A stretch of DNA of 15,461 nucleotides from Microbacteriaceae bacterium (GTDB taxonomy: Bacteria; Actinomycetota; Actinomycetes; Actinomycetales; Microbacteriaceae), in contig JAODLU010000228.1 of the NCBI GenBank assembly GCA_025464125.1, positions 1 to 15,461 of the forward strand. The letters are read 5' to 3'. Each line of letters opens with the position of its first letter. Within the stretch, counting starts at the first letter, position 1. Of this stretch, positions 342 through 15,272 are shown in pieces. A program made the translations under genes and the position numbers. Below the pieces are notes generated by a model. That model did no database searches. It saw only the letters and a list, made by a program, of their open reading frames with translations, and had not been told where the DNA came from.

Positions 342-2147
342 CTACTCCCCGTCCCACTCTGGCGCGTGGTCGCGCGCATACTGCACAGCGGAGTTGCTCA
401 CGCCCTGCGGCACCATCGGCCACACCATCGAGTCAGGGCTGACGATGAAGTCGATCACAACCGGGCGGTCGTTGGTCTCGTTCGCCAGCTTGATCGCGGC
501 ATCCACCTCATCCTTCGTGCGAACCCGGATGCCCAGCGCGCCATATGCGTCGGCCATCTTCACGAAATCCGGGATCATCGCCGTGTCATGGCCGGTGTTC
601 AGGTCGGTGAAGGAGTGACGGCCGTCGTAGAACAGCGTCTGCCACTGGCGCACCATGCCGAGGGATGAGTTGTTGATAATCGCAACCTTGATCGGGATCT
701 TGTTGATCGTGCAGGTTGCAAGTTCCTGGTTGGTCATCTGGAAGCATCCGTCGCCGTCGATCGCCCACACCGTGCGCTCGGGTTCTGCAACCTTCGCGCC
801 CATCGCTGCCGGCACCCCATAGCCCATCGTTCCCGCACCACCTGAGTTGAGCCAGGCGTTGGGGCGCTCGTACTTGATGAACTGTGCGGCCCACATCTGG
901 TGCTGTCCGACACCTGATGCGTAGATGGCCTCAGGCCCGGTCAGCTGCCCGATGCGCTCGATCACGTACTGTGGCGACAGCAGCCCGTCCTCCGGCTCGT
1001 CGTAACCCAGCGGGAACTCGGCTCGCAGCGTGTTGAGGCGCTCCCACCATTCGCTGAGGTCGTACTTCAGACCCTTCGTCGCCTCGGTGAAGGCGCTCGA
1101 AAGGTCGACGATGACATCCTTGGCATCGCCGACGATGGGAACATCTGCGAACCGGATCTTGGAGATCTCGGCCGGGTCGATGTCGACATGCACGACCTTC
1201 GCGCCAGGTGCGAACTCGCTCGGCTTGCCGGTCACCCGGTCGTCGAACCGCGCACCGAGCACGATAAGCAGGTCGGATTCCTGCAGGGCCAGCACCGCCG
1301 GAACCGTGCCGTGCATGCCAGGCATGCCGAGGTTCAGCGGGTTGGAGTCGGGAAAGACGCCGCGAGCCATGAGGGTGGTTACCACCGGGGCACCCACCTT
1401 TTCGGCCAGCTCGAACAGCTCGGCCGATGCCTGGGCACGCACGATGCCACCGCCCACGTAGAACACGGGGCGCTTAGCCTCTGCGATCAGTTGCGCAGCA
1501 GCCTGGATCTGCTTGCCGTGCGCTTTCGTGACCGGCCGGTAGCCAGGCAGTTCCACCTTCGATGGCCAGACGAATGGCGCGCTGTTCTGCTGCGCGTCTT
1601 TCGAGATGTCGACGAGCACAGGGCCCGGGCGGCCGGTCGTGGCGATCTGGTACGCGGCAGCGAGCGTCGCGGGAATGTCGGCGGGGTCGGTCACGAGAAA
1701 TGAGTGCTTGGTGATCGGCATGGTGATCCCCACGATGTCGATCTCCTGGAACGCGTCGGTACCCATGACCGTCGAGAACACCTGGCCGGTGATGGCGAGC
1801 AGCGGCACAGAATCCATGTGCGCGTCAGCGATCGCCGTGACCAGGTTTGTTGCGCCTGGACCGGATGTCGCGATGCAGACCCCGAGGCGGTTGGACGACG
1901 CGGAATAGCCCTCAGCCGCGTGACCTGCGCCCTGCTCGTGCCGGACAAGGATGTGCCTGATCGCCGTCGACGACATGAGCTCGTCGTAGAAGGGCATGAT
2001 TGCGCCGCCCGGCAGGCCGAAGACATCGGTGATGCCGAGCAGTTCGAGGGAACGCAGGATCGCCCCGGACCCCGTAAGGATCTCGGGCGTGGTCGATGCG
2101 GCTGCTGCCGGCTTGGTTGCTGTGGGCACGGGAGTGTCCGTGGACAT
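342..2147 (-). CDS. ilvB: Acetolactate synthase large (catalytic) subunit
   Basis: ThDP- and FAD-dependent catalytic subunit of AHAS. It condenses two pyruvates to 2-acetolactate (valine/leucine branch) or pyruvate plus 2-ketobutyrate to acetohydroxybutyrate (isoleucine branch). The 601 residues match the usual actinobacterial length. The N-terminal ThDP domain has [15 protein letters not shown] (43-57) and the activating glutamate E71 in [13 protein letters not shown]. The central FAD domain includes [10 protein letters not shown] (298-307). The C-terminal ThDP domain has the GDG...NN diphosphate/Mg motif (465-467 to 492-493) and GMVRQWQ (497-503). By eye, Phe124 occupies the position that is Pro in plant and yeast enzymes, a sulfonylurea-sensitivity site. 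About 20 N-terminal residues are an Ala/Pro/Thr-rich lead. The ATG is preceded by AAGGAAAA (2151-2158). It lies 61 bases after ilvD with no evident terminator, so ilvD-ilvB-ilvN is probably one transcript. Confidence 0.97.
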
Positions 2148-2150
2148 CTG

Positions 2151-2158
2151 TTTTCCTT
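2151..2158 (-). promoter_or_regulatory. Ribosome binding site of ilvB
   Basis: AAGGAAAA on the minus strand, with the AGGAA core ending 5 bases before the ilvB ATG. It supports the start at 2147. Confidence 0.6.
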
Positions 2159-2208
2159 GGTCTGAAAGTGTTTCGCGAATGGAGGATCGTCACCCGTGTT
2201 GATAGGTG

Positions 2209-3906
2209 CTACCCGGTGATCGCGCCCTCCGCGGCGGAGTGCACGAGCTTGACATATTTGGCGAGAACGCCACGGGTATAGCGCGGGGGAAGTGGAGCCC
2301 AGCCGGAGTGGCGAGCTGCGAGCTCAGCGGGCTCGACGAGTAGGTCGAGTGAGCGAGCTGCGATATCGACCCGTATTAGATCACCATCGCGCACGAAGGC
2401 GATTGGACCTGCGTCCACCGCTTCGGGTGCTATGTGGCCGATACACAGTCCGGTTGTGCCGCCTGAGAATCTGCCGTCCGTCAAGAGTAATACATCTTTT
2501 CCGAGACCAGCGCCCTTGATGGCCGCGGTGATGGCAAGCATTTCGCGCATGCCAGGACCGCCCTTCGGGCCCTCGTACCGGATGACGACGATGTCGCCCT
2601 TCTGGATGACGCCCTCCGTAAGCGCGTCCATGGCCTCACGCTCGCGCTCGAAGACGCGGGCCGGGCCCTCGAAGACGTCGGCGTCGAAGCCCGCAGTCTT
2701 GACGACCGCGCCGTCAGGCGCCATTGAGCCCTTGAGGATTGTGAGGCCGCCGGTGGCGTGGATGGGGTTGTCGAGCGTGCGAAGCACCTTGCCATCCAGC
2801 GGGTCGGGGTTGAGTTCAGCGAGGTTCTCCGCGACGGTTTTGCCCGTCACTGTGAGGCAGTCACCGTGCAGCAGTCCGGCATCCAGCAGGGCCTTCATCA
2901 GCACCGGCACTCCGCCGTGGCGGTCCATGTCATTCATCACGTACTGGCCGAACGGCTTCATGTCTGCCAGGTGCGGAACCTTGTCGCCGATGCGGTTGAA
3001 GTCGTCGATGGTCAGCTCGACTTCAGCCTCATGCGCGATGGCGAGCAGGTGCAGCACGACGTTGGTCGAGCCACCCAGGGCCATCGCCACGGTGATGGCG
3101 TTCTCGAACGCCTTCCTGGTCAGGATGTCGCGGGTTGTGATCCCGAGCTTCAACAGGTTGACCACAGCCTCACCCGACCGGTGGGCGAAGTAGTCGCGGC
3201 GGCGGTCGGCGGCGGCCGGCGAAGTGGAACCGGGAAGCGACATCCCGAGTGCTTCCGCGACGCTCGCCATGGTGTTCGCCGTGTACATGCCTCCGCAGGC
3301 ACCTTCGCCAGGGGCGAATGCACATTCGATGCGATGGGCATCCTCGGCACTCATCGTTCCGGCCTTCAGACCGCCGACTGCCTCGAAGGAGTCGATGATC
3401 GTGATCTCCTTCTCGGTGCCATCCGTGAGCTTGACCCAGCCGGGAGCGATCGAACCCGCATAGAGAAAGACGGATGCCAGGTTGAGTCGCGCGGCCGCCA
3501 TAAGCATGCCGGGAAGCGACTTGTCACAACCGGCGAGCAGCACGGAGCCGTCGAGGCGCTCGGCCTCCATGACGACCTCGACCGAGTCCGCGATGACCTC
3601 CCGGCTCACCAGGGAGAAGTGCATACCGACGTGACCCATCGAGATGCCGTCGCTGACCGAGATCGTGCCGAACTGCAGCGGATAGCCACCACCGGAATGC
3701 ACGCCCTCCTTTGACGCCTGAGCGAGGCGGTCAAGGCTGAGGTTGCACGGGGTGATCTCGTTCCATGAGCTCGCGATGCCGATCTGCGGCTTCTCCCAGT
3801 CGTCGTCGCCCATGCCGACCGCGCGCAGCATTCCGCGGCTCGTGGTGGCTTCGATTCCGTCGGTGACGGTGCGGGAGCGTGGCTTCCAGTCTGGTGTTTC
3901 GGGCAT
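2209..3906 (-). CDS. ilvD: Dihydroxyacid dehydratase
   Basis: Iron-sulfur dehydratase that converts 2,3-dihydroxy-isovalerate and -methylvalerate to the 2-keto acids, the third common step of valine/isoleucine synthesis. It has 565 residues, normal for the family. Expected landmarks are present: [14 protein letters not shown] with Cys54, GCDKSLPGM with Cys127 and [12 protein letters not shown] with Cys204 (the three cluster cysteines), then [12 protein letters not shown] and, near the C-terminus, [19 protein letters not shown] holding the catalytic serine. These favour IlvD over the related 6-phosphogluconate dehydratase (Edd), as does the position just ahead of ilvB. No clear Shine-Dalgarno precedes the ATG. 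Instead a TATTCT box ends 6 bases upstream, suggesting a leaderless transcript. The start is only 20 bases past the stop of the upstream split-barrel gene, so read-through from otsBA is also possible. Confidence 0.96.
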
Positions 3907-3912
3907 GTAACA

Positions 3913-3918
3913 AGAATA
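3913..3918 (-). promoter_or_regulatory. Candidate -10 box for a leaderless ilvD transcript
   Basis: TATTCT on the minus strand ends 6 bases before the ilvD ATG, the spacing expected if transcription begins at the A of the start codon. No convincing -35 hexamer is visible. The region has no ribosome site at normal distance (nearest is GGAG, about 15 bases off). It lies in the 20-base gap after the upstream gene's stop. Inferred from sequence only. Confidence 0.4.
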
Positions 3919-3926
3919 GGACTCCG

Positions 3927-4409
3927 CTACAGCTGCACGGTGCGACTCTCGCCGACGTCAGGCGTCGTGTGGGTGACGAGGGCTTTCACGGTCTCGAGGG
4001 CGCGCACCACGCCTGGCTTGTCCACGTGCCAGTACTCGGCGCTTGTGACATCCACCTGCAGCAGGGCCACACTCGGGTCTTCACGGCCGCCCTCGAACCA
4101 TGCCTCGACGAACGGGTTCCAGAACTCGTCGATGCGTGCCTGGTCGCGGTTCACTGACGCGTGACCCGCCATAGACACGACGCTCGCGCCGTCCACGAAC
4201 GCGACGTTTACGTGGGCGTCTGAACGCACGTCGTCGATCTTCGGGCTGGGGTCCTGGGTGAAGAACCAGACGGTCCCGTCAAAGTCCTTTTGCAGCACCG
4301 CGAGAGGCCGACTGTAGAGCGATCCGTCTGCGCTGTGGGTGGTGACCGTGGCGAAGCGCGTGCTCTTCACGATGCCGGTGATGATCTCGAGTTCTTCTTC
4401 GTGCGACAT
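3927..4409 (-). CDS. Pyridoxamine 5'-phosphate oxidase-like (FMN-binding split-barrel) general-stress-type protein
   Basis: A 160-residue single-domain protein of the flavin-binding split-barrel superfamily, of the kind annotated 'general stress protein' or 'pyridoxamine 5'-phosphate oxidase family'. Landmarks are [20 protein letters not shown] (strand pair and SRPL flavin contact), [26 protein letters not shown] and [31 protein letters not shown]. It lacks the extra length of true PdxH (about 210 residues), so vitamin B6 synthesis is not implied. Such proteins often bind FMN or F420, but the ligand here is unknown. The start at 4409 is chosen because GAAGGGA (4417-4423) sits 7 bases upstream; an in-frame ATG 33 bases earlier lacks such a site. 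It lies between otsB (48 bases upstream) and ilvD (20 bases downstream), and neither neighbour explains its role. Confidence 0.85.
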
Positions 4410-4416
4410 TGCACTA

Positions 4417-4423
4417 TCCCTTC
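4417..4423 (-). promoter_or_regulatory. Ribosome binding site deciding the start of the split-barrel gene
   Basis: GAAGGGA on the minus strand, 7 bases before the ATG at 4409. It selects this start over the in-frame ATG at 4442. Confidence 0.6.
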
Positions 4424-4457
4424 GTCGGATGGTTCGTAGCACGAAAAGTACGCCGAC

Positions 4458-5273
4458 CTACTGCTCGTGCACATCCCCTTCGCGAAGGTCAGCCAGCAGG
4501 TTCAGCGCGCGGGCGACATCGATCGGCCCGCCGACGCGGAAATTGGCGAGGGTGGCGCCAGCGCCCGACTTGAGGCCGACGTCGTCGGAGCCAAGGGCTG
4601 CGAACGCGTCTTCGTCAGTCACGTCGTCGCCGGCGTAGAACACGGCCGTCGCCGCTGTGTATTCGCGCAGGTGTTCCAGCGCCTCACCCTTGGTGGTCGA
4701 GCGCACCGAGAATTCGAGCACGTTCTTGCCTGTACGCACAGTCAGGTCCTGCATCTCAGCGGCAGTCTCGCTGAGGGCCACGAGGTGGGCGATGCGGCTG
4801 TTGTGCTCGGTGGCCAGGCGGGTGTGCAGGGCGAAGCCAGCGGGCTTCGGCTCGAGCCAGACCTGGTCGAACGAGTCGGCCACCTCACCGAGCACCTCGT
4901 TGAGCAGGTCCACACGCTTCAACTCGGCTGTGTCGAGCGAAAGGTTGTGATCAGGGCTGTCGAGCCGCAACTCGATGCCGTGCGAACCGACGAGCAGCAC
5001 GGAGTCCGGCAGGTCGGAGACCTCGATGAGGCTCTTCAGCGCTCGACCAGACACGAGAGCGACACGGGTGTTTGGCATGTCGAGCAGGCGAAGCACAGCG
5101 GCTCGCGCCTCGGGAATCGCTCGCGCCTTCTCGGGGTCGTCGACCTCTGGCGCGAGCGTGCCGTCGAAATCGAGGGCTACGAGCATCCGCTTCGTCCTGG
5201 CCAGCTCGCGCAGTGCGCCGATGAAGGGTTCGGGCAGGCGAGAAAAGGTAGGGGGTGTATCTACGTCGACCAT
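4458..5273 (-). CDS. otsB: Trehalose-6-phosphate phosphatase
   Basis: Dephosphorylates trehalose-6-phosphate made by the adjacent OtsA, giving trehalose, a compatible solute and stress protectant. The 271 residues fit the short bacterial form. It is a HAD-fold hydrolase: motif I is DFDGTLAP (35-42, nucleophile Asp35 and acid Asp37), motif II is SGR (75-77), the motif III lysine is in STTKGEAL (K195), and motif IV is GDDVTDEDAF (215-224). GSHGIELR and EPKPAGFALH are typical of OtsB. The ATG shares its A with the otsA stop (TGATG), a usual sign of translational coupling. A GAGGAG lies 14 bases upstream, rather far for an independent ribosome site. Function is clear from motifs plus context. Confidence 0.96.
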   Translation of the reverse strand: MVDVDTPPTFSRLPEPFIGALRELARTKRMLVALDFDGTLAPEVDDPEKARAIPEARAAVLRLLDMPNTRVALVSGRALKSLIEVSDLPDSVLLVGSHGIELRLDSPDHNLSLDTAELKRVDLLNEVLGEVADSFDQVWLEPKPAGFALHTRLATEHNSRIAHLVALSETAAEMQDLTVRTGKNVLEFSVRSTTKGEALEHLREYTAATAVFYAGDDVTDEDAFAALGSDDVGLKSGAGATLANFRVGGPIDVARALNLLADLREGDVHEQ

Positions 5274-6805
5274 CAGGTGGTTTTGCGCTCCTCATGCAGG
5301 GTGTGGCCGGCCGCGCCGTGATGGCTGTACGTGCCGAGTACGCGCAGGAAATCGGTCGACCAGCGCGCCACATCATTCTCGAGCACGCGCTTGCGCAGCG
5401 ATCGCATGCGGGCCTGGCGATCCCGCTTGGGCATCGAAATAGCCTGCAGGATCGCGTCTTTCATGCCGTCGATATCGTGCGGGTTGATCAATAGCGCCCG
5501 CTTCAATTCGTCGGATGCACCAGCGAACTCGCTGAGCACCAGCACACCGTCTTCGTCGAACCTGCACGCGACGTATTCCTTGGCCACGAGATTCATGCCG
5601 TCGCGGAGCGCGGTGACGAGCATGATGTCTGCAGCAACGTAAAGGGCGGCCATCTCTTCGCGCGGGTAGCCGTGGTGGTGGTAGCTGATGGGCGTGTGCG
5701 CGATGGTGCCGAAGTCGCCGTTGATGCGACCGACGGTCAGCTCGATCTCGTCGCGGAGAGCCATGTATGCCTGCACGCGCTCGCGACTCGGGTTCGCGAC
5801 CTGTACCAGGGTCACGTCTTCTGGCGAGATCAAACCGTCTGCCAGCATTTCGCCATAGGCCTTCAGCCGGTGGCCGATGCCCTTCGTGTAGTCGAGTCGG
5901 TCGACGCCGAGCATCAGTGTGCGCGGGTTGCCGAGCTCTTGCCGAATCTGGTGCGCGCGCGCCTGCACCGAAGGTTCGCGGGCAAGGTCTTCGAAGCTCT
6001 TCGCATCGATCGATATCGGGAAGGCCCTCGCCACAACCGTGCGAAAGGAGCCCTGCCGCTTGATCGGGCCAAAGACCCTCACGCCGGGGGAATTGTCGAG
6101 GAGGGGCACCTCGACATAGGTGCCCTTGGTCGAATACCCCTTGAGTCGGCGCACAGCCCGCTGGAAGTTTCCGGCGTCGGCGATGCGCTGGAACCCGATG
6201 ACGTCTGCACCGAGCAACCCCTCGATGATCTGCGCGCGCCAGGGCAGCTGCGAGTAGATGCCGTACGGAGGAAAGGGGATGTGGTTGAAGAACCCGATCG
6301 TGAGATCCGGTCGCAGTTCCCTCAGCATCTTCGGCACCAGCTGCAGCTGGTAGTCCTGCTCCCACACCGTCGCGCCCTCCGCGGCGGCGGCAGCGGTCGC
6401 CTGCGCAAAACGCTGGTTCACCTCCACGTAGCTCTCCCACCACTCGCGATGGAAACTCGGCGGTGCAATCACATCGTGGTACAGGGGCCAGAGGGTGTCA
6501 TTGGAGAAGCCCTCGTAATAGTTCTCGATGTCTGGCGCACTCAGCGGCACCGGCACGACGCGAATGCCCTCGTTGTCGAACGGTTCGAATTCGAGGTCGG
6601 GCTGGCCGCCCCATCCGATCCAGGCACCTTCGTTCTGGCGCATCACCGGCTCGAGCGCTGTGACGAGACCGCCAGGAGAACGGGCCCAGCTCGACGACCC
6701 GTCAGCCGCGATCACCCTGTCGACGGGCAGGCGATTAGAGACGACCACGAAACCGTATTCGCCTCTGGGGCTCGCGTTCTCAGAGCCGCTGTCAGTGCCG
6801 TTCAT
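5273..6805 (-). CDS. otsA: Alpha,alpha-trehalose-phosphate synthase (UDP/NDP-glucose-forming), GT20
   Basis: Transfers glucose from an NDP-glucose donor to glucose-6-phosphate to give trehalose-6-phosphate; first step of the OtsAB pathway. The 510 residues form a GT-B enzyme of family GT20. Motifs in order: VVSNRLPV (21-28), SPGGLVTAL (43-51), WEQDYQLQLVPKMLRE (148-163, where many bacteria have HDYHL), GFFNHIPFPP (171-180), GVDRLDYTKGI (300-310, with the phosphate-binding Arg and Lys), and DGMNLVAKEY (402-411) followed by VLVLSEFAGASDEL. All expected active-site segments are present. The ATG is fixed by an in-frame TAA four codons upstream. No good ribosome site is visible. The gene is divergent from corA across 101 bases and coupled to otsB. 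Confidence 0.97.
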   Translation of the reverse strand: MNGTDSGSENASPRGEYGFVVVSNRLPVDRVIAADGSSSWARSPGGLVTALEPVMRQNEGAWIGWGGQPDLEFEPFDNEGIRVVPVPLSAPDIENYYEGFSNDTLWPLYHDVIAPPSFHREWWESYVEVNQRFAQATAAAAAEGATVWEQDYQLQLVPKMLRELRPDLTIGFFNHIPFPPYGIYSQLPWRAQIIEGLLGADVIGFQRIADAGNFQRAVRRLKGYSTKGTYVEVPLLDNSPGVRVFGPIKRQGSFRTVVARAFPISIDAKSFEDLAREPSVQARAHQIRQELGNPRTLMLGVDRLDYTKGIGHRLKAYGEMLADGLISPEDVTLVQVANPSRERVQAYMALRDEIELTVGRINGDFGTIAHTPISYHHHGYPREEMAALYVAADIMLVTALRDGMNLVAKEYVACRFDEDGVLVLSEFAGASDELKRALLINPHDIDGMKDAILQAISMPKRDRQARMRSLRKRVLENDVARWSTDFLRVLGTYSHHGAAGHTLHEERKTT

Positions 6806-6893
6806 AGGGACTGCTTACTCTCGTTGTGTGCCGCACACCCTCGTTGGTAAGCAGAGTCCACGATATCAAACGGTCAGGCACTGCCCGCGCTAC

Positions 6894-6899
6894 TAGCAT
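6894..6899 (+). promoter_or_regulatory. Candidate -10 box for a leaderless corA transcript
   Basis: TAGCAT ends 7 bases before the ATG at 6907. There is no ribosome site in that gap, which fits a leaderless mRNA. The -35 region is weak. It lies in the otsA-corA divergent spacer, which must also hold the otsA promoter. Confidence 0.35.
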
Positions 6900-6906
6900 T
6901 GCCCGC

Positions 6907-7875
6907 ATGGTGACGACGCGGCTCTACAAGCAGGGAAAACTGGTGCTCCGTGACTTTCCGGTGGCAGATATCTCCGACCACATTGCTGCTGAAGGATGCA
7001 CGGTCTGGGCCGATTTCGTCTCCCCGACCGAGCAGGACCTCGCCACCATCGAGGAGGAGCTCGGCCTGCACGCCCTCGCCGTAGAGGACGCGGTGCACGA
7101 CTCGCAGCGACCGAAGCTGGACCGCTACGACACTCACCTTTTTTTGGCGGCATATGGGGTAGGGCTCGACCTGGAGACCGGCGAACTGGAGACTCGCGAG
7201 GTGAAGGCTTTCATTACCCCTCACGCGCTCATCACCGTGCACGGGCCCGAGTTCGACATGAAAGAGGTCGTTGGCCGGTGGGACAACGATCCTGACCTTG
7301 GACAGCACGGTGTCGCCTTCCTGCTCTGGGGCCTGCTCGACGTGATCGTCGACACTCACTTTTCTACGGTGCAACAGCTGGACGCCGAGATCGAGCTGCT
7401 CGAGGACGCCCTGTTCGATGACATTCCGCGCGACAAAGAAGTGCAGAAGCGTTCATTCGAGCTGCGCAAGTCACTGGTGCTGCTGCGCCGTGTGGTGCTG
7501 CCCATGCGGGAGGTGGTGAACACGGTGTTGCGGCGTGATCTCGACACCCTGGATGTCGCGATGACCCCGTATTTCCAGGACGTCTACGACCACGTGCTGC
7601 GAGCGACGGAGTGGACGGATTCGCTGCGGGACCTGGTCACGACGATCCTCGAGACGAATATCTCCATCCAGGGCAACCGCATGAACCTCATCATGAAGAA
7701 GGTGACCAGCTGGGCGGCCATCATCGCGGTGCCCACCGCCATCACCGGTTTCTTCGGCCAGAACCTCCAGTTCGCGGGCTTCGGCACCGTGTGGGGTGCA
7801 TGGCTGTCGCTTGTGCTGATCGTCGTCGTCTCGGGCGCGCTTTACCTGAGCTTCAAGAAGCGCGATTGGGTTTAA
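6907..7875 (+). CDS. corA: CorA-family divalent cation (Mg2+/Co2+) transporter with a GQN variant motif
   Basis: Membrane channel of the CorA/2-TM-GxN family, which moves Mg2+, sometimes Co2+ or Ni2+, as a pentamer. The 322 residues have the family plan: an N-terminal cytosolic domain (WADFVSPTEQDL, ALAVEDAVHDSQRPKLDRYDTHLFL, ALITVHGPEF), a long helix region (QQLDAEIELLEDALFDD, ELRKSLVLLRRVVLPMREVV), then two C-terminal membrane helices (about 263-283 and 297-317) and a basic tail KKRDWV. The segment NRMNLIMKKVTSWAAI before the first helix is typical. The selectivity-loop motif, GMN in classic CorA, reads GQN (284-286, followed by LQFAGFG), so ion specificity should not be assumed. The start at 6907 gives the usual N-terminus and leaves space for promoters; an in-frame ATG at 6826 would add 27 atypical residues. 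Confidence 0.92.
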   Translation: MVTTRLYKQGKLVLRDFPVADISDHIAAEGCTVWADFVSPTEQDLATIEEELGLHALAVEDAVHDSQRPKLDRYDTHLFLAAYGVGLDLETGELETREVKAFITPHALITVHGPEFDMKEVVGRWDNDPDLGQHGVAFLLWGLLDVIVDTHFSTVQQLDAEIELLEDALFDDIPRDKEVQKRSFELRKSLVLLRRVVLPMREVVNTVLRRDLDTLDVAMTPYFQDVYDHVLRATEWTDSLRDLVTTILETNISIQGNRMNLIMKKVTSWAAIIAVPTAITGFFGQNLQFAGFGTVWGAWLSLVLIVVVSGALYLSFKKRDWV

Positions 7876-7883
7876 CTGTTCTC

Positions 7884-7911
7884 TTGGCGTCGTGAAACCT
7901 GGCGTTAATGT
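7884..7911 (+). promoter_or_regulatory. Candidate promoter of the sugar isomerase-like gene
   Basis: TTGGCG (7884-7889), a 16-base spacer, then TAATGT (7906-7911), placed just after the corA stop. A second -10-like box, TAGTCT (7920-7925), ends 7 bases before the ATG at 7933 and would give a leaderless transcript. No ribosome site is seen. Which box is used cannot be told from sequence. Confidence 0.4.
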
Positions 7912-7932
7912 GCTGCCCGTAGTCTCTGCACA

Positions 7933-8766
7933 ATGATTCGCTTCGGAATGAGCACGTCCTGCATCTATCCGCTCGGCGTGGAGAGTTCCTTCCGGCTCGC
8001 CAAACTCGCTGGGTATGACGGTGTCGAGGTGATGGTGACCGCCGACAAGGCGACCCAGCGCCCGGAGTCGCTGCTCGCGCTTTCGAAGAAGTACGACATC
8101 CCGATCCTTTCCATCCACGCGCCAGTGCTGTTTCTGACGCAGTGGATCTGGGGCGGCCCGCAGGAGAAGCTCGAGCGGGCAGCCGAGCTGGCCGCCGCGG
8201 TCGGAGCATCGACGGTCGTCGTGCATCCGCCGTTCGTGTGGCAGGGCCGTTATGCGCGCAGGTTCCTCGACGTGGTTCGAGCAACTGCCCTGGCGACCGG
8301 AGTCGAGATCGCGGTGGAGAACATGTTCACCTGGAAGGTGCTCGGTCGCACCATGAAGATCTACGCGCCGGGCTGGGATCCCACCCTGATGGACGCGGAT
8401 TCGATGACCCTCGACTTCTCGCACGCCTCCCTCTCAGGCAAGGATTCGCTCGAGTTCGCGATGCAGATGGGAGATCGCCTGCGTCACATCCACCTGTGCG
8501 ACGGGGCAGGCTCGGTCGAGGACGGCAAAGTTTTCGACTCACATCTGCTTCCCGGGGATGGCGACCAGCCGGTCGCCGATGTGCTGGCGCACCTCGGTTC
8601 CACCGGCTGGAGCGGATCGATCGTGGCCGAGGTGCACATCCACGCCCGCACCGAGGAACGTCGACTCACGGCGCTTCGCACGACACTGGACTTCGCCCGC
8701 GCGGCAATCGCTGGCGCACCCTCGACCGCGACCGCAGCGAGATCTAGGCCATTGCGGCAGCCGTAA
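7933..8766 (+). CDS. Sugar phosphate isomerase/epimerase-like TIM-barrel protein (xylose isomerase-like/AP endonuclease 2 fold)
   Basis: A 277-residue soluble protein of the xylose-isomerase-like TIM-barrel family. It has the regularly spaced metal and active-site residues expected of that fold: EVMV (32-35), SIHAP with His62, VVVHPP with His98, AVENMF with Glu129, LDFSH with Asp161/His164, HIHLCDG with His185/His187, DSHLLPGDGD (202-211) and AEVHIH with Glu233. These imply a divalent-metal enzyme acting on a sugar or polyol phosphate. The superfamily also includes endonuclease IV, but the length and motifs match the isomerase/epimerase group. The substrate cannot be deduced; neighbours are a metal transporter and an export operon. 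The last 15 or so residues (after AAIAGAP) are a low-complexity tail. Its final 23 bases overlap the convergent yhgE-like gene. Confidence 0.85.
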   Translation: MIRFGMSTSCIYPLGVESSFRLAKLAGYDGVEVMVTADKATQRPESLLALSKKYDIPILSIHAPVLFLTQWIWGGPQEKLERAAELAAAVGASTVVVHPPFVWQGRYARRFLDVVRATALATGVEIAVENMFTWKVLGRTMKIYAPGWDPTLMDADSMTLDFSHASLSGKDSLEFAMQMGDRLRHIHLCDGAGSVEDGKVFDSHLLPGDGDQPVADVLAHLGSTGWSGSIVAEVHIHARTEERRLTALRTTLDFARAAIAGAPSTATAARSRPLRQP

Positions 8767-10567
8767 GCCCCAGTGCCTGCGCACGCCTCGTGCGCCTGAT
8801 CGCCAGCAGCGACACGAGCACGCTGCCGACACCGAAGGCCAGCAGGGTGAAGGCCGCGCCGAGCACGGGTCCGGCGTCTCCCCCGGCGATGATGCCCTGC
8901 ATCCCCTGCACACCGTAGGTGAGCGGCAGCAATGGACTGATCCACTGGAACGGGGTCGCGAGCAACTGCACGGGGTAGAGCCCGCCGGTTGATGTCACCT
9001 GGATTGCCAGCGCCAGCAGCGACACCACTAGCCCGGCCCTGCCGAAACCGATCGTCAGCAGGTAGTGGAAAGCCGTAAAGGCGAGGGCCATCAGCACCGC
9101 GAAGCCGAGGGTTGCGGGCAGGGCTGCCCAGCTGACGCCGAGCGAGATGTGAAGCAGTCCAACGAGCAGCACTGCCTGGGCCGCGGTGATCGCGCCAGCC
9201 TTCGCTATCGTCGAGGCAACCAGGCGACCGTTGCCTGCAGTCGACGAAAGAACCCTGCGTGTAACGGGCTTCAGCACGAGGAACACGGCGAGCGCGCCGA
9301 CCCAGAGCCCAAGCGGCACGAAGAAGGTCGCGATGACCTTGCCGATGCCCTCGATCGGGTTATCGCGGGTGATCTTCACGCCGACGGGATTGGCTGCGAC
9401 CTTGGCTGCCTTCGCCGCGGCTGCACTGTCAGTCACTGGAACCTGGTCGGCACCGGACTGCAGGCCCGCCGCGAGCTGGCTCGCACCAGAGGCCAGGGAT
9501 CCTGCGCCGGTCGATGCGGACGCCGCCCCGCTCGAGAGTCCGCCGATGCCGCTCGCCAGCGAGCTCGCGCCCGACCGGAGGCCCGCCGAGCCGCCGGAAA
9601 GCTGTGAGGCACCCGACGCACTCTGTTCGATGCCGGACTGGATGCCGGAAGCCGCGTCCGCATTCGCCGCGCTCACCGAGGTCAGCCCCTCGCTCGCGGT
9701 GGCAAGGTCGGCCGTGAGAGTGGCGATCACTGCCGGATCGGTCTCGGTCTGGAGTTGTGCCGAGATCGTCGCGATGCTGCTGGCGTAGCCTGAGACGCCC
9801 TGTGCCGCCTGGACTGCACCAGACGACCCTGCACCCAGCTGGCCGAGGCCCGAACTGAGCGAGTCCACCCCGCCGGTGTACTGCGTGATTCCACTCGACA
9901 GCGATGACGCGCCGCCAGCAGCAGAACTCGCGCCGCTCGCGAGGGTAGCGAGGCCGCCGCTCAGGTCGCTCGCACCTGCGGCGAGGCCCGATGCCCCTGT
10001 TGCCGCAGTGGCCAGGGACGAGCCGAGCGTGCCGACGCTGGCGAAGATACCTGCGATGTACTGCTCGGTGACTGCCTTGCCGAAGGCATTTGCCATGCCG
10101 TCGCCGACCGCCTGCGCGACTGCGCCGGTGAGATAACTGTGGGCGTCATCGGTGTGGATTGCCAGGTCCGCCTGCCGTGGACTCGTCGACTGCAGCGACA
10201 GGATCGAGGACGAGAAGTCCTTGGGCACGGTGAGGATGGCATCGACCTTGCCGCTCTTCAGTGCTGCTGCGGCATCCGCCTTGTTGGTGATGGTCCAGTC
10301 GAAGCCTTTGCTGCCGCCGGTGAGTTCCGTCACCAGCTGTCGACCGGCGAAGATCGGCGTCTTGGTGCCATCGGCGGCCGTCTGGTAGACGAGCTCGTCG
10401 CTGTTCACGATGGCCGCAGGGATGCGATCGATGGCTGTGTCTGCCTGCGCGAGCGCGCCGACAAAGAGACCGGCGAAGGCGAGTGGCACGAGCACTACTG
10501 CGGCTATCGCGGCCCTGCCGAGCCACTTCGAGCGGCGCGGCGCCTGGGGTGCAGTGGACTGGCTCAT
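8744..10567 (-). CDS. YhgE/Pip-type membrane protein with Gly/Ser/Ala-rich repeat ectodomain and ABC-2-like C-terminal domain
   Basis: A 607-residue membrane protein of the YhgE/Pip family (distantly related to phage-infection protein and the type VII component EsaA/YueB). The layout is one N-terminal membrane helix (about 17-40), the YhgE-type extracellular start (AAIVNSDELVYQ, then KSGKVDAILTVPKDFS and YLTGAVAQAVGDGMANAFGKAV), a low-complexity region of GASxLxSG-type repeats (about 190-375), and five or so C-terminal helices (about 410-433, 456-478, 483-506, 510-530, 568-590). The STGGLYPVQLL and ISPLLPLTYGVQGMQGIIAG segments resemble ABC-2-type export permeases. The start overlaps the mmpL stop by 4 bases (ATGA) and is preceded by AAGGGAG (10575-10581), so it is co-expressed with the MMPL transporter. 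The exported substrate is unknown. Confidence 0.9.
   Translation of the reverse strand: MSQSTAPQAPRRSKWLGRAAIAAVVLVPLAFAGLFVGALAQADTAIDRIPAAIVNSDELVYQTAADGTKTPIFAGRQLVTELTGGSKGFDWTITNKADAAAALKSGKVDAILTVPKDFSSSILSLQSTSPRQADLAIHTDDAHSYLTGAVAQAVGDGMANAFGKAVTEQYIAGIFASVGTLGSSLATAATGASGLAAGASDLSGGLATLASGASSAAGGASSLSSGITQYTGGVDSLSSGLGQLGAGSSGAVQAAQGVSGYASSIATISAQLQTETDPAVIATLTADLATASEGLTSVSAANADAASGIQSGIEQSASGASQLSGGSAGLRSGASSLASGIGGLSSGAASASTGAGSLASGASQLAAGLQSGADQVPVTDSAAAAKAAKVAANPVGVKITRDNPIEGIGKVIATFFVPLGLWVGALAVFLVLKPVTRRVLSSTAGNGRLVASTIAKAGAITAAQAVLLVGLLHISLGVSWAALPATLGFAVLMALAFTAFHYLLTIGFGRAGLVVSLLALAIQVTSTGGLYPVQLLATPFQWISPLLPLTYGVQGMQGIIAGGDAGPVLGAAFTLLAFGVGSVLVSLLAIRRTRRAQALGLTAAAMA
8779..8795 (+). 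terminator. Candidate hairpin terminator after the sugar isomerase-like gene
   Basis: A perfect inverted repeat, GCGCACG-CCT-CGTGCGC (7-base stem, 3-base loop), starts 12 bases after the plus-strand stop at 8766 and lies inside the 3' end of the opposing gene. There is no T-run, so it would have to act as a U-less terminator or with Rho. It may equally be chance in Arg/Ala-rich coding sequence. Confidence 0.3.
9443..10000 (-). repeat. Degenerate protein-level repeat region (GASxLxSG-type) in the YhgE/Pip-like protein
   Basis: Residues about 190-375 are built from irregular 7- to 11-residue units such as GASDLSGG, GASSLSSG, GASQLSGG, GASSLASG and GASQLAAG, almost entirely Gly, Ala, Ser and Leu. 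Leu recurs at heptad-like spacing, which suggests long extracellular helical hairpins. A less repetitive island, with QLQTETDPAVIATLTADL near 271-288, sits in the middle. This is typical of YhgE/Pip proteins. At DNA level the units have diverged, so recent tandem expansion is not evident. Confidence 0.7.
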
Positions 10568-13464
10568 GAGAGCGCTCCCTTGGTTTCGACGGAGGTGAGA
10601 TCGATCGTGCCGAGCACGCGGCCATCGACTGTCGCCGGTGCGTTGCGCACCGGCAGGGGGGTGCCGATCACGAGAGTCGTTCCCGCTCGGGCAAGCCTGC
10701 AGACCGCGTGGATGAACGCACGCTCGTCATCGGCGACAGCGAAGCTGTCCAGCTGGTCGAGCGCGACGATCGGTGTGCCCTCGGCGAGCGCGACTGCTGC
10801 GAGAGCAACTGCCCGCTGGCACTGCGGCAGTTCGTTGACGTGCGACCCGTCGTTGAGCGGTGCAAACGGCGAGTCGGCGAGTGCCGTATTGACCCTCGCG
10901 ATCCAGCGCTGCGCACGGCGACGCAGCGTGAATGCGCGATACCAGGGCTGCGTGAGCCGCAGGCGCTCTTCGAATAGTTCACCGAGCGTTACGGACGTCT
11001 CAGCGCGCTCGAGGCCACCGACGTTGGCCATGGCGACGAGACGCGACACCCTTCCCGATTCTGATGGCAGCGGATGCCCATCCACCTGCAGTTTGCCGTC
11101 AACCGGCTCGAGCCTGCCCGCGAGGGTCGCGGTCACAAGCCTGCGGTCGGTGACGTCTCCACTCGCAAGCAGCAGGCCGCCCTCAGGAACCGTGAAGCTG
11201 AACGGGCCGACCCGGTGATCGGCGGACCCAACGACCAGGGCTTCGGCGCTGATGGCAGCACCGTTCTCGCCAACAGCCCAGGCAACTGCCTCGCGGTGCT
11301 CGCGCAGGTGCTCGCCCTCGATGTCCATGTTGGGCAGCGCACGCTGCAGCCATTTCGGCATCCACCATGCTGCCTTGCCGAGAAGCGTCATGATGGCCGG
11401 CACAAGCGTCATGCGCACGAGGAACGCGTCGAACGCGACACCCGTGGCAAGTCCGAGGGCGATCGGCTTGATCGTGCCTGAACCTTCGGGCACGAAGGCG
11501 AAAAAGACGAAGAACATGATCAGCGCAGCGGCCGTGACGACGCGCGCGCCGTTCGCGAACCCGCGGCTGACCGCCTGTTTCGCGTTGCCCGAGCGTACAA
11601 ATTCCTCGCGCATGCCTGAGACAAGGAACACCTCGTAGTCCATCGCCAACCCGAAGAGCACAGCCATCAACAGGATGGGCATGAAGCTCAGGATCGGGCC
11701 GGGGTTTTCGACGCCGAGCAGGTCACCGAACCATCCCCACTGGAAGACCGCGACGACGACGCCGAACGACGAGAGCACAGACAGCAGGAAGCCCAGTGCC
11801 GCCTTCAGCGGAACGAGAACCGACCTGAACACCATCATCAGCAGCACGATCGACAGGCCGACGACAATCGCGCCGAATGGCACGAGCGCGCCGCTCAGGC
11901 GGTTGGAGATATCGATGCCGACGGCGGTTGTTCCGGTGACAGAGACCTCGGTGTCGTACTTGTCTTTGATCGTGGGGGCCAGGTCCCTGATGGACTGCAC
12001 CAGTTGCTTGGTGGCAGTGGCGTCTGGCGCGCTGGACGGGATCACCTGGATGATCGCGGTGTCGAGCCCGGCATCTGGAAGTCCCTGGCTCACGTAGCTC
12101 ACGTCCTTGAGCGAGCTGAGGTCGGCGCGAATGGACTTGAGGTCTGCGGCGATATCCGTGGTCTGGGTGATGTCGATTGCGACGATCAGTGGCCCGTTGT
12201 AGCCCGGCCCGAAGCCCTCCTTGATGAGGTCGTACGCCTCACGCTGGGTCGAACCCTTCGGCTCGGATCCGCCGTCTGGCAGCGCGAGGTTGAGGCTGAG
12301 CGCGGGGATTGCGAGCGTGCCGAGCACCGCCACGACGGCGAGGGTCGCGAGCACAGGGTGCTTCATGACGCCCTTCACCCAGCGCAGCCCCATCGTGGGC
12401 TTTGCGCCTTCCTGGTGAACAGTCGCGCGCTTCCACGCGCGGGATCCGACCTTCGGCCGCAGGCGACCTTTCGCCAGCCCGAGCAGGGCGGGCACGAGAG
12501 TCGTTGCAACACCGATCGCGATGAGCACGGCGAAGGCCGCGCCGACGCCCATGACGCTGAGGAACGGGATGTTGACCACAAGCAGGCCGAGCAGGGCGAT
12601 GATCACGGTGACCCCGGCGAAGACGACCGCGCTGCCTGCAGTGCCGACAGCAGTGGCGGCAGACTCCTCCGGATCCTCGCCCATCGCGAGCTGGTTTCGA
12701 TGTCGGCTGACGATGAAGAGGGCGTAGTCGATTCCGACGGCCAGGCCGATCATGAGTGCAAGCAGTGGCGCGGAACTCGACACCGTGGTGAACGCGGAGA
12801 CCGCGCCGATTCCGCCTGTGACGATGCCGACTCCGACGAGGGCACTGAGCAGTGGCATGCCGGCGGCGATCAGCGAGCCGAAGGTGATGAGCAGCACGAT
12901 GGCTGCGAAGATGACTCCGAAAATCTCGGTGATGGTGATGCCGAAGGTGTTGTCCTGGAAGACCTGGCCGCCGAAGGCGACGGTCATTCCGGCATTCTCA
13001 CCGATCTTCGCAGTGTCTTTCAGGGCGCTGAGAGTCTTCTCGGTGACATCCGTCGATGCGCCGGTGAACTGCACCTGCGTGCGCGCCATCTGCCCGTCAT
13101 CGCTGATCGAGCTGCCCGCGTACTCCGAGAATGGTGAGACCACCGAGTCGATGCCGGGGATCTTCTCGATCGCGGCATCCATCGACGTGATCGCAGCCGT
13201 GTAGACGGGGTCGTTGACGGATGCCCCATCCGGAACCACCACGATCGCCTGGGCACTGGCTCCCGCAACCGAGGGAAACACTGCCTCGAGCCTGTCGAGC
13301 GCGTTCTGCGACTCCGTGCCGGGGATCGCGAACGACTCCTGCGTCTGGCCGCCGAGGGCGATGCTGCCGCCGAGGATACCCGCGATGAGCAGCACCCAGA
13401 CGCCGATGACGATCCATGCGCGACGGTAGGCGAAACGCCCGAGGCGGTAGAGGAGGGTGGCCAC
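10564..13464 (-). CDS. MMPL/RND-family transporter fused to a degenerate ABC ATPase-like C-terminal domain
   Basis: A 966-residue membrane protein. Residues 1-700 are a complete MMPL-type RND transporter: helix 1 (about 16-38), a first extracytoplasmic loop (40-170), helices 2-6, helix 7 (368-392), a second loop (393-520) and helices 8-12. Both Asp-Tyr pairs of the proton relay are intact: GLAVGIDYALF (Asp246) and FGLAMDYEVFL (Asp609). It should therefore be proton-motive-force driven, exporting a lipid or amphiphilic substrate not identifiable here. Related short MMPL proteins usually end near 700-740 residues; this one continues with an ABC-ATPase-like region. The start is GTG, set by TAGGAG (13470-13475), whose TAG is also the tetR stop. 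It overlaps the YhgE-like gene by ATGA. An efflux or cell-envelope lipid role is plausible. Confidence 0.93.
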   Translation of the reverse strand: MATLLYRLGRFAYRRAWIVIGVWVLLIAGILGGSIALGGQTQESFAIPGTESQNALDRLEAVFPSVAGASAQAIVVVPDGASVNDPVYTAAITSMDAAIEKIPGIDSVVSPFSEYAGSSISDDGQMARTQVQFTGASTDVTEKTLSALKDTAKIGENAGMTVAFGGQVFQDNTFGITITEIFGVIFAAIVLLITFGSLIAAGMPLLSALVGVGIVTGGIGAVSAFTTVSSSAPLLALMIGLAVGIDYALFIVSRHRNQLAMGEDPEESAATAVGTAGSAVVFAGVTVIIALLGLLVVNIPFLSVMGVGAAFAVLIAIGVATTLVPALLGLAKGRLRPKVGSRAWKRATVHQEGAKPTMGLRWVKGVMKHPVLATLAVVAVLGTLAIPALSLNLALPDGGSEPKGSTQREAYDLIKEGFGPGYNGPLIVAIDITQTTDIAADLKSIRADLSSLKDVSYVSQGLPDAGLDTAIIQVIPSSAPDATATKQLVQSIRDLAPTIKDKYDTEVSVTGTTAVGIDISNRLSGALVPFGAIVVGLSIVLLMMVFRSVLVPLKAALGFLLSVLSSFGVVVAVFQWGWFGDLLGVENPGPILSFMPILLMAVLFGLAMDYEVFLVSGMREEFVRSGNAKQAVSRGFANGARVVTAAALIMFFVFFAFVPEGSGTIKPIALGLATGVAFDAFLVRMTLVPAIMTLLGKAAWWMPKWLQRALPNMDIEGEHLREHREAVAWAVGENGAAISAEALVVGSADHRVGPFSFTVPEGGLLLASGDVTDRRLVTATLAGRLEPVDGKLQVDGHPLPSESGRVSRLVAMANVGGLERAETSVTLGELFEERLRLTQPWYRAFTLRRRAQRWIARVNTALADSPFAPLNDGSHVNELPQCQRAVALAAVALAEGTPIVALDQLDSFAVADDERAFIHAVCRLARAGTTLVIGTPLPVRNAPATVDGRVLGTIDLTSVETKGALS
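10645..11253 (-). other. Degenerate ABC-transporter nucleotide-binding domain fused to the MMPL transporter
   Basis: Residues about 738-940 of the MMPL protein align by eye with an ABC ATPase from end to end. VGPFSFTVPEGGLLLASG precedes a Walker A position where the invariant Lys falls on Arg774 and the glycines are lost. TLAGRLEPVDGKLQVDGHPL (780-799) matches the post-Walker-A LAGLL..P..G.I.VDG segment. SVTLGELFEERLRL (824-837) resembles the TV.E.L stretch after the Q-loop. LPQCQRAVALAAVALA (879-894) sits at the LSGGQRQRVALARALA signature. PIVALDQLD (898-906) is a Walker B with Asp903 kept and the catalytic Glu replaced by Gln904. GTTLVIGTP (928-936) has Pro instead of the H-loop His. It is probably non-hydrolytic, possibly structural or a nucleotide sensor. 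The alignment is visual and needs a profile search. Confidence 0.75.
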
Positions 13465-13469
13465 GTGGA

Positions 13470-13475
13470 CTCCTA
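13470..13475 (-). promoter_or_regulatory. Ribosome binding site of the MMPL gene, overlapping the tetR stop
   Basis: TAGGAG on the minus strand: its TAG is the tetR stop and AGGAG is 5 bases before the GTG at 13464. It supports the GTG start and coupling of transporter translation to tetR. Confidence 0.65.
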
Positions 13476-14033
13476 GGGTGCTGGTACTGCGATCGGAGCG
13501 AGGAGCTCCGACAGGATGGTGACGAGAGCAGCCCTGGTCTCATCGATGGGTGACTGGACTCCGAGTGAGTCCTGGGTGCAGAGCATGTATGCAGCGCCAC
13601 CGAGCGCGATGCCGAAGCGCATCTTGTCTTCGACGGAGCTGGTGTTCGTTGCGAAGTATTCGGCCAGCCGCTGCACGACCTCGTTCGCCTGGTCGATCAC
13701 CGGCACGTCGGTCAGGGACGGGCCCTGGTTGATGAACAGGTTTACCTCGCGGCGGTATTCGAGGATGAAGTCGACGAACTCGTTGAGGAATGAAGCTCGA
13801 CCGGCAGGGCTCAGGCTGTTCACCTGGAGTGTGTCGAGGATGCCGCCCATGCGTTCGATGGCCGGTGACACCGCCGCCTCGAGCAGCGTCTCCTTCGACG
13901 AGTAGTGATAAAGCACGCTCGACTTCGACAGCCCGGCGAGCTCGGCGATTCGATGCAGGGAGGTCGCCGCATAACCCGCTGTGGCGAATTCGGCGAGCGC
14001 AATAGCCCTGAGTTCTTCGGCTGAGGTGGACAT
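13473..14033 (-). CDS. TetR/AcrR-family transcriptional regulator
   Basis: A 186-residue one-component repressor of the TetR family. The N-terminal helix-turn-helix is clear: AIALAEFATAGYAATSLHRIAELAGLSKSSVLYHYSSKETLLEAAV (10-55), with recognition-helix residues SKSSVLYHY. The all-helical C-terminal part (about 60-180) is the ligand-binding and dimerisation region and has no recognisable ligand signature. It is the first gene of a three-gene operon with the MMPL and YhgE-like genes (8-base gap, then 4-base overlap), so it very likely represses their transcription together with its own. Two matching palindromes lie directly upstream (14048-14085), overlapping the candidate promoter. The inducer is probably a substrate of the exporter or a membrane stressor, but this is inference. 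Confidence 0.94.
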   Translation of the reverse strand: MSTSAEELRAIALAEFATAGYAATSLHRIAELAGLSKSSVLYHYSSKETLLEAAVSPAIERMGGILDTLQVNSLSPAGRASFLNEFVDFILEYRREVNLFINQGPSLTDVPVIDQANEVVQRLAEYFATNTSSVEDKMRFGIALGGAAYMLCTQDSLGVQSPIDETRAALVTILSELLAPIAVPAP

Positions 14034-14114: not shown

Positions 14115-15272
14115 TCAGGGGTTCGAAAGCGCGAGACCCAGGGTCGCGAGACCCACGGTCAGCGGCGCGGCCACCAGCCCGAGAAGCATGTACCTCGCCC
14201 AGGAGATCTCCACGCCGAGAGACTTCAGGCGCTCGTGCCAGAGGAGCGTCGCGAGAGACGCCCACGGCGTGATAAGCGGCCCGGCGTTGACCCCGATCAG
14301 GATGGCGGCGAGCCTCACCGGGTCCCCCGCGACAGGCTCCAGCGCGAGGTAAGCCGGCAGGTTGTCGACAGCGTTGGCACTCAGCGCAGCGGTACCCGAG
14401 AGCCGCAGCAGGCTGAGCGGGTCGTGCCCTGTGCCGGAGATTGCACCCAGCAGGGCGCCGAGCCCCAGCGAATGTGCGGCTTCGACCACGAGAAACAGTC
14501 CGGATGCCAGCAACACCAGCTGCCACGGCACCAGCCCGAATGAGACGGCTGGCCTGCGGCGCACCAGGAAGAAGGCGCCAAGCACCAGCGCTGCCGCCAG
14601 CGCGGGCATCCAGACGGGTATGCCGGAAACCAAGGCTGGCAACAGCAGAACCACGATGACTCCGCTTGCCACAAGAAGCGTGCGATCCACCGGTGCGACC
14701 GTCTTCGCCGGCTCGTAGCGCACGAGCAGCTGGCGCCGGTAGACGATAAAAAGGATCACTGCTGGCACAACGATCGCGATCATCGCAGGCACCGCCATCA
14801 GGCGTGCGAAGCCAAGCGGCCCAACGTCGTCGAATTCGCGCTCCGCGAGCAGGTTGGTGAGGTTCGAAACCGGCAGCAGCAAGGATGCGGTATTCGCCAT
14901 CCAGACCGCCGTGAGCGCGAAAGGCAGCGGGGACAGGCCGACCTGGCGTGCAAGCAGCACGACGACAGGCGTGAGCAGGACTGCGGTCGTGTCGAGCGAC
15001 AGGAAGATCGTGCTGAGCACAGCGAGAACGAGCACGAGCAGCCACAGGAGCCAACCGCGGTTGCGTCCCCAGCGCGCGGTATGTCCCGCCACCCAGCCGA
15101 AAAGACCGGCCTCTGCCGCGAGTTCGGTCACCACCGTGATGGCCACGACGAAAAGCAGGATCGGCCAGACCCTGTCGGCCAGCGCGAGCGCGTCACCGAC
15201 GGGAAGGATGCCTGCCAGTACGGCAATGAGGCCGACCACAAGTAGCCCGCCGCCGAGAATCGCTGTGCGCAC
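14115..15272 (-). CDS. ArsB/NhaD-superfamily (SLC13-like) permease
   Basis: A 385-residue polytopic membrane protein with about ten hydrophobic segments, of the ArsB/NhaD ion-transporter superfamily. Segments that track ArsB are FLSLDTTAVLLTPVVVLLAR (90-109), WMANTASLLLPVSNLTNLL (124-142), ALSANAVDNLPAYLAL (295-310) and GVNAGPLITPWASLATLLW (326-344), followed by LGVEISWARY. These are the two re-entrant-loop regions of the family. It is somewhat shorter than classic ArsB (about 430), and no arsR, arsC or ATPase gene is nearby, so arsenite export is possible but not established; another anion or a cation antiport is equally open. The start is GTG at 15272. A TACTGT box (15278-15283) ends 5 bases upstream and no ribosome site is evident, again pointing to a leaderless mRNA. 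It ends 81 bases before tetR on the same strand. Confidence 0.85.
   Translation of the reverse strand: MRTAILGGGLLVVGLIAVLAGILPVGDALALADRVWPILLFVVAITVVTELAAEAGLFGWVAGHTARWGRNRGWLLWLLVLVLAVLSTIFLSLDTTAVLLTPVVVLLARQVGLSPLPFALTAVWMANTASLLLPVSNLTNLLAEREFDDVGPLGFARLMAVPAMIAIVVPAVILFIVYRRQLLVRYEPAKTVAPVDRTLLVASGVIVVLLLPALVSGIPVWMPALAAALVLGAFFLVRRRPAVSFGLVPWQLVLLASGLFLVVEAAHSLGLGALLGAISGTGHDPLSLLRLSGTAALSANAVDNLPAYLALEPVAGDPVRLAAILIGVNAGPLITPWASLATLLWHERLKSLGVEISWARYMLLGLVAAPLTVGLATLGLALSNP

Follow-up and report, generated by a model that had tools for sequence, protein, structure and literature searches.

YhgE/Pip and EsaA proteins (models TIGR03061 and TIGR03062) form a poorly understood family whose Firmicutes members reportedly have phage-receptor and type VII secretion roles. 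MMPL/HAE2 RND transporters of the MmpL3 type carry two MMPL stretches and two Asp-Tyr pairs that form a proton relay in MmpL3, as described in PMC7458404. Heterodimeric exporters of the ATP-binding cassette (ABC) type, such as TM287/288 and TmrAB, hold a degenerate nucleotide-binding domain (NBD) for structure or allostery next to a canonical partner NBD that hydrolyses ATP (PMC8277102). Here we analysed a window of 15,461 nucleotides, the whole stretch of contig JAODLU010000228.1 (assembly GCA_025464125.1) from a Microbacteriaceae bacterium, in which one gene encodes an MMPL/RND transporter that shares the two MMPL stretches and the Asp-Tyr pairs with the MmpL3 type but adds an ABC-derived C-terminal extension, termed here the pseudo-NBD, and pairs with a YhgE/Pip gene. 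What is new is that the extension goes together with YhgE/Pip, an ABC-2-like permease whose gene follows directly downstream (Table 1).

The arrangement joins two transporter superfamilies in one polypeptide, provides YhgE/Pip proteins of many Actinomycetota with an NBD partner of their own that seems to have lost catalysis, and makes it testable whether a proton pump can drive or gate an ABC-type permease without ATP hydrolysis. Among the matches listed from the open-access literature, subscription papers being outside the scope, we found no description of an MMPL–NBD–YhgE unit. Architectures combining MMPL with PF00005 are already present in sequence databases, and free-standing relatives of the extension are named ABC proteins in public records; because many of these NBDs carry ATP-binding cassette names there, probable pseudo-ATPases go unnoticed.

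Identity of the C-terminal extension

The transporter body matched MMPL (PF03176) in two stretches over the cut-off (Pfam, E 2.7e-85), and the window protein scored 210.6 on the NCBIfam MmpL3 model, the cut-off of which is 1400. Both Asp-Tyr pairs are invariant among the homologues wherever these align and match the relay pairs of MmpL3, so the MMPL motor looks intact; by analogy, D246-Y247 and D609-Y610 would act as the proton relay, and the pump looks proton-driven from its sequence. Elsewhere, the MMPL match G286:C1:2722636-2723418 contains one in-frame TGA.

The extension begins at about residue 714. Searches with the single sequence did not identify it confidently: Pfam found nothing in this region, the NCBIfam model FecE was matched weakly (E 0.0013) and the best PDB match had an E value of 0.015. 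Identity came instead from profiles and fold. A profile of 18 extension sequences matched 104 PDB sequences at E<=1, and the 60 that were listed are all ABC proteins, counting WlaB, which we take to be one. The best match, EcfA1 (E 6.4e-6), was collinear along 217 profile positions. The predicted model of the extension strongly indicates an ABC ATPase fold; the structure alignments comprised the window sequence with 17 of the 18 loci in one case and with 12 of the 18 in another. Fold and collinear profile match are thus shared with the NBDs of ABC transporters (PF00005; EcfA, MlaF and FtsE folds), but all four catalytic motifs are disrupted in the extension and PF00005 itself was not reached, one of the 18 members coming to E 0.099. 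The initial annotation had described an MMPL transporter with a fused, collinear and degenerate ABC domain, and profile, fold, motif table and the intact Asp-Tyr pairs all agree with it; the profile match is significant even though PF00005 is not reached, and the predicted structure is that of an ABC domain. The extension it had placed at residues 738–966 is real but starts earlier and includes the helix at 715–732.

Altogether 117 proteins, the window's included, match the extension, 114 of them along at least 80% of it. The named relatives that carry it are mostly members of what we presume, from their genera, to be Microbacteriaceae. To describe the catalytic positions we compiled a motif table covering 114 of 115 rows of the window clade (P0002–P0116), 81 of 83 Aeromicrobium-type rows (P0118–P0200), all six of P0202–P0207, 57 fused loci and 35 free-standing NBDs (32 of the 36 surveyed below plus L059–L061), with P0117, P0201 and P0208–P0217 left out. 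In the window clade the Walker A Lys, the S[GA]G core of the signature, the catalytic Glu and the H-loop His are absent from every sequence, and the Walker B Asp remains in 103; the catalytic position is most often Gln (59) or Leu (42). The window's own P-loop is additionally one residue short and lacks the inner glycines, and its signature, LPQCQ, is a private version of what is most often LPQLE. The four substitutions read from the window protein at the outset (Lys to Arg, LSGGQ to LPQCQ, Glu to Gln904 and His to Pro936) were correct.

The pattern of loss differs in other branches. Aeromicrobium-type MMPL fusions, annotated PF03176+PF00005, share the architecture and the MMPL clade of the window protein, but keep the Walker A Lys in 79 of 81 cases, 73 of them with a whole GxxGxGK[ST]; their signature is L[TS][RP]LE-like, the catalytic position holds Asp in 77 and Glu in none, and His stands at the H-loop column in six. 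All six P0202–P0207 fusions keep a GxxGxGK[ST] P-loop and have lost the other catalytic motifs. Among the 35 free-standing NBDs encoded beside YhgE, the Walker A residue is Lys in one and Arg in 27, and S[GA]G, Glu and His are found in none; the 57 fused loci have the Lys in four. Outside the class, the NBDs of L165–L168 read GRNGSGKT, LTSEK or LTSQK, and VVDDVE, with no H-loop His (by eye). Rough regular expressions run over the best 120 of 3133 Streptomyces-type homologues gave GRT in 119 and neither LSGGQ nor the H-loop pattern in any. A further group of MMPL fusions with a shortened NBD (L045, L048, L050–L058, L099 and L101) had no residues aligned at the signature; they retain the strands around Walker A and B, and GKS is kept in L050 and L054.

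The full catalytic set occurred in 0 of 293 aligned family rows, as did S[GA]G (0/293) and the catalytic Glu (0/293), some of these rows being fused loci that repeat proteins of other sets. By comparison, 19 of 20 other ABC ATPases had the full set; 16 of the 20, drawn from 20 loci, were picked by script for intact Walker A and signature patterns, so only their Glu (14/16) and His (15/16) are free observations. Catalytic degeneracy therefore reaches beyond the MMPL fusion, and the YhgE-linked NBD family appears, from these motifs, to be catalytically dead throughout the sample. Surveyed in this way, homologues carry the same extension, some of them with an intact Walker A.

Association with YhgE/Pip and descent

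The downstream partner was over the cut-off on both family models, TIGR03061 (E 3.1e-37, 127.7 bits) and TIGR03062 (E 5.7e-49, 166.6 bits), and also matched Pfam ABC2_membrane_3 (E 1.3e-23). X-X-X-Leu-X-X-Gly heptad repeats were seen in the same protein (TIGR03057, five stretches), and its residues 147–374 are predicted to be mostly helical.

Every fused locus with enough DNA (60 of 60) has YhgE as the next gene downstream. Three of these repeat one gene, leaving 57 that are non-identical, and four (L089, L091, L099 and L101) had been fetched via YhgE; the 56 found without using YhgE all had it (56/56). L001–L003 were excluded as short copies, and L009 has no downstream DNA. As controls, 40 MMPL regions from 20 genomes were picked by hand from a listing as unfused. 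One, L161, proved to be fused and had YhgE, and it is counted among the fused loci; YhgE was found near none of the other 39 in the DNA fetched, roughly 4–5 kb per side.

The converse survey, blind to NBDs, searched 148 genomes of the class with TIGR03062 and gave 40 YhgE genes over the cut-off; two of them are those of the window and L036, and the other 38 were fetched. An NBD lies immediately upstream of every one of the 40; in 36 cases it is free-standing and in four it is fused to MMPL (L089, L091, L036 and the window). In L090, L092, L093 and L096 the NBD was seen only with a profile built from other loci; these four had been candidates for NBD-free YhgE loci and were rejected as such once that profile had detected the domain in each. 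Three YhgE genes lay below the cut-off: L099 and L101 are fused and have the NBD, and L100 is without it. Searching 199 genomes of the family with the pseudo-NBD profile returned free-standing ABC open reading frames, and the three taken from those listed (L059–L061) all lie directly upstream of YhgE. The extension is thus no isolated oddity; it represents one branch within a widespread family of YhgE-linked NBDs.

Outside the class, in 16 regions picked from a listing, L165–L168 have both NBD and YhgE. In other Actinomycetota a single or tandem YhgE can lack such an NBD: L169–L172, L174, L175 and L177 have a tandem YhgE pair with no YhgE-type NBD adjacent and no MMPL seen in the DNA fetched, and their two products possibly form YhgE heterodimers; L162–L164, L173 and L176 (the last cut at a contig end) have a single YhgE with no NBD beside it. 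By eye, a TetR-like open reading frame lies just downstream in L163.

In a quick-search tree of 107 NBD rows, the YhgE-linked NBDs split from 20 other ABC ATPases with support 100; inside the family, fused and free-standing classes interleave with supports below 95. A tree of 106 MMPL rows, also from a quick search, separated 67 fused from 39 unfused bodies with support 100. The free-standing proteins, named ‘ATP-binding cassette domain-containing protein’ (for example, in Streptomyces), share the window extension's side of the NBD tree, its place upstream of YhgE and its loss of signature, Glu and H-loop, but are not fused to MMPL and often have GxxGxGRT as Walker A. The simplest reading would be that an NBD which was already degenerate but still had Walker A became joined to MMPL once; Walker A then disappeared from the window's branch, and the helical subdomain from another (for example, L048 and L050–L058). 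The order implied by the initial annotation, in which fusion of an active ATPase preceded its inactivation, was rejected because the free-standing relatives beside YhgE are degenerate too. P0117 and P0201, in which MMPL, NBD and YhgE share one open reading frame, were also rejected as evidence of fusion; their arginine-rich, low-complexity junctions look frameshifted, and they are probably frameshift or read-through products.

Proposed role of the fused domain and alternatives

We consider it reasonably probable that the extension is an NBD-like partner of the neighbouring YhgE that became fused to the MMPL C terminus and serves as a non-hydrolysing docking or coupling adaptor between the two. 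YhgE docking is the best reading because the NBD family that includes the domain is linked to YhgE/Pip, and a coupler role is suggested by the loss of the ATP-burning residues together with a retained shape and an adjacent YhgE gene. The pseudo-NBD would dock on the cytoplasmic face of YhgE as an ABC NBD does on an ABC-2 permease; without ATP hydrolysis, it would hold YhgE against the pump, coupling the two physically and perhaps allosterically, and may relay pump movements. The complex would draw its energy from protons passing through MMPL instead of from ATP, and YhgE, whose middle part is long and helical, would lengthen the export path or act as its gate. By analogy with MmpL relatives, a lipid or amphiphile is the probable substrate. 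Only tentatively would we go further and propose a hybrid machine in which the proton-motive force drives conformational changes, through a welded pseudo-NBD that in the window lineage neither catalyses nor binds nucleotide, into an ATP-free YhgE permease. The role first suggested for the domain was scaffolding, gating or nucleotide sensing; the former two are plausible and narrow to YhgE docking, whereas nucleotide sensing is unlikely in the window member, as its P-loop has gone, and is possible in branches that keep theirs.

The helical subdomain is the region by which ABC NBDs grip their permease, and here it holds a PWYR motif; the pattern P[WF][YFW] occurs in 102 of 114 window-clade sequences, 8 of 35 free-standing relatives and 0 of 20 other ABC ATPases. 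In a mirror-tree analysis of 37 window-type loci, extension and YhgE had a partial correlation of 0.60 when the body was controlled for, compared with 0.35 for body and YhgE when controlling for the extension; this is only suggestive because shared inheritance was not fully removed. Several observations weigh against docking on YhgE. The PWYR-type pattern is found in 0 of 81 Aeromicrobium-type proteins, the mirror-tree excess is absent when all 53 loci are used (0.46 versus 0.52) and, since some lineages carry YhgE with no such NBD beside it, the domain is not needed by every YhgE. A single fusion rests on the MMPL tree, as the NBD tree does not group the fused domains. The YhgE model is mediocre (predicted local distance difference test, pLDDT, 73.6; predicted template-modelling score, pTM, 0.50) and its structure matches are weak, the best at E 0.025 and none at E<=0.001; they include the ABC-2 proteins 3cni, ABCA4, KpsM, ABCG25, TarG and CcmB alongside MmpL5, chemoreceptors and Smc coiled coils, and the comparison was set aside as too weak to serve as proof. 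Finally, in ratios of non-synonymous to synonymous substitution (dN/dS; Nei–Gojobori, 22 most similar pairs), the extension ranged over 0.12–0.69 and the body over 0.03–0.41, the extension exceeding the body in 19 of 22 pairs.

This last result, with the loss of every catalytic motif and the existence of a sister class lacking helical subdomain and signature (for example, L048 and L050–L058), would suit a decaying remnant of a fused NBD whose role has gone. We give that explanation a slim chance: 114 of the 117 matching proteins span at least 80% of the extension, its model has a confident fold and, among the five pairs whose bodies are at least 0.95 identical, its dN/dS was 0.12–0.25 (body, 0.03–0.10), where neutrality predicts about 1. 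Against L004, L006 and L007, the window gave 0.22, 0.23 and 0.22 for the extension and 0.13, 0.14 and 0.18 for the body. The extension is shown to be under purifying selection, though it is usually less constrained than the pump. Moreover, mean entropy in the window clade was 0.88 for the former P-loop and its helix, 0.69 for the strands after the P-loop and 0.92 for the signature helix, compared with 1.59 overall; because these are the most conserved parts, the old active-site surfaces seem to have been rebuilt rather than left to drift.

Two further explanations keep a part for nucleotide. The domain might sense a ligand or nucleotide and gate MMPL on its own, YhgE being an independent product of the same regulon, and the retention of the Walker A Lys in nearly all Aeromicrobium-type proteins, in P0202–P0207 and, by eye, in all four L165–L168 NBDs suggests that such domains may long have bound nucleotide without hydrolysing it; yet the Lys is gone throughout the window clade and the family is linked to YhgE even where MMPL is missing, so we regard this explanation as unlikely here. 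Alternatively, a canonical NBD encoded elsewhere could pair with the pseudo-NBD on YhgE and hydrolyse ATP, for which the degenerate sites of heterodimeric ABC exporters offer a precedent (PMC7756269 and PMC8277102). The genome has 58 PF00005 matches, making canonical NBDs elsewhere possible, and the flanks of L019, L020, L024 and L033 contain ABC ATPases at a distance of a few kb. But, in contrast to TM287/288 and TmrAB, no second NBD was seen directly beside YhgE with the profiles used, and with signature and P-loop both gone a shared site would lose both faces; we hold such pairing to be improbable. An assembly, frameshift or read-through artefact could be suspected because the source assembly of the window is fragmented (389 contigs, 64.66% complete), but the join recurs in many independent genomes, several of them named and on long contigs. 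These independent occurrences refute an artefact, the probability of which we put at next to nothing, and rule out the frameshift that the initial annotation had named as a danger to its reading.

Locus layout and neighbouring genes

On the minus strand the genes run TetR, MMPL fusion, YhgE/Pip, and the YhgE start overlaps the MMPL stop by four bases (ATGA, 10564–10567).

Table 1 Positions of the fusion gene, its motifs and its partner genes in the window
Feature	Position	Strand	Remarks
MMPL–pseudo-NBD fusion gene	10564..13464	-	966 aa, GTG start, single continuous open reading frame
MMPL/RND body, residues 1-713	11326..13464	-	
ABC-derived pseudo-NBD extension, residues 714-966	10567..11325	-	
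First Asp-Tyr proton-relay pair (by analogy), D246-Y247	12724..12729	-	114/117 homologues, remaining 3 gapped there
Second Asp-Tyr pair, D609-Y610	11635..11640	-	117/117 homologues
Linker helix, residues 715-732 (model residues 2-19)	11269..11322	-	Conserved DIEGE motif
Former Walker A, GDVTDRR (769-775)	11140..11160	-	Clade consensus GxxxDRR; Arg for Lys in 114/114
PWYR motif (840-843)	10936..10947	-	Helical subdomain
Former ABC signature, LPQCQ (879-883)	10816..10830	-	
Former Walker B, IVALDQ (899-904)	10753..10770	-	Asp kept; catalytic Glu replaced by Gln904
Former H-loop His, now Pro936	10657..10659	-	Pro in 89/114
YhgE/Pip family ABC-2-like permease, 607 aa	8744..10567	-	TIGR03062, TIGR03061, ABC2_membrane_3
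TetR-family regulator	13473..14033	-	TetR_N E 7.4e-12

The TetR gene is likely the upstream member of an operon with the MMPL fusion and YhgE. A similar TetR open reading frame lies 5′ of most window-type fused loci; none was found beside most of the short-NBD fused loci examined. In Saccharopolyspora hirsuta, the YhgE/Pip and MMPL genes F1721_04135/F1721_04140 have consecutive tags and both rise with cholesterol at 24 h, according to PMC9782250. This response is an independent hint of YhgE–MMPL co-expression and a possible hint of a sterol-like or amphiphilic substrate. A YhgE/Pip recombination hotspot has also been described (PMC12584985); in the open-access search these two were the only papers to name YhgE together with MMPL.

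The genes flanking the locus (window 342–8766 and 14115–15272) look like housekeeping genes. They include an ArsB/CitMHS transporter (Pfam) and others that we take to be acetolactate synthase, dihydroxy-acid dehydratase, trehalose-phosphate phosphatase and synthase, CorA-like and epimerase-like genes.
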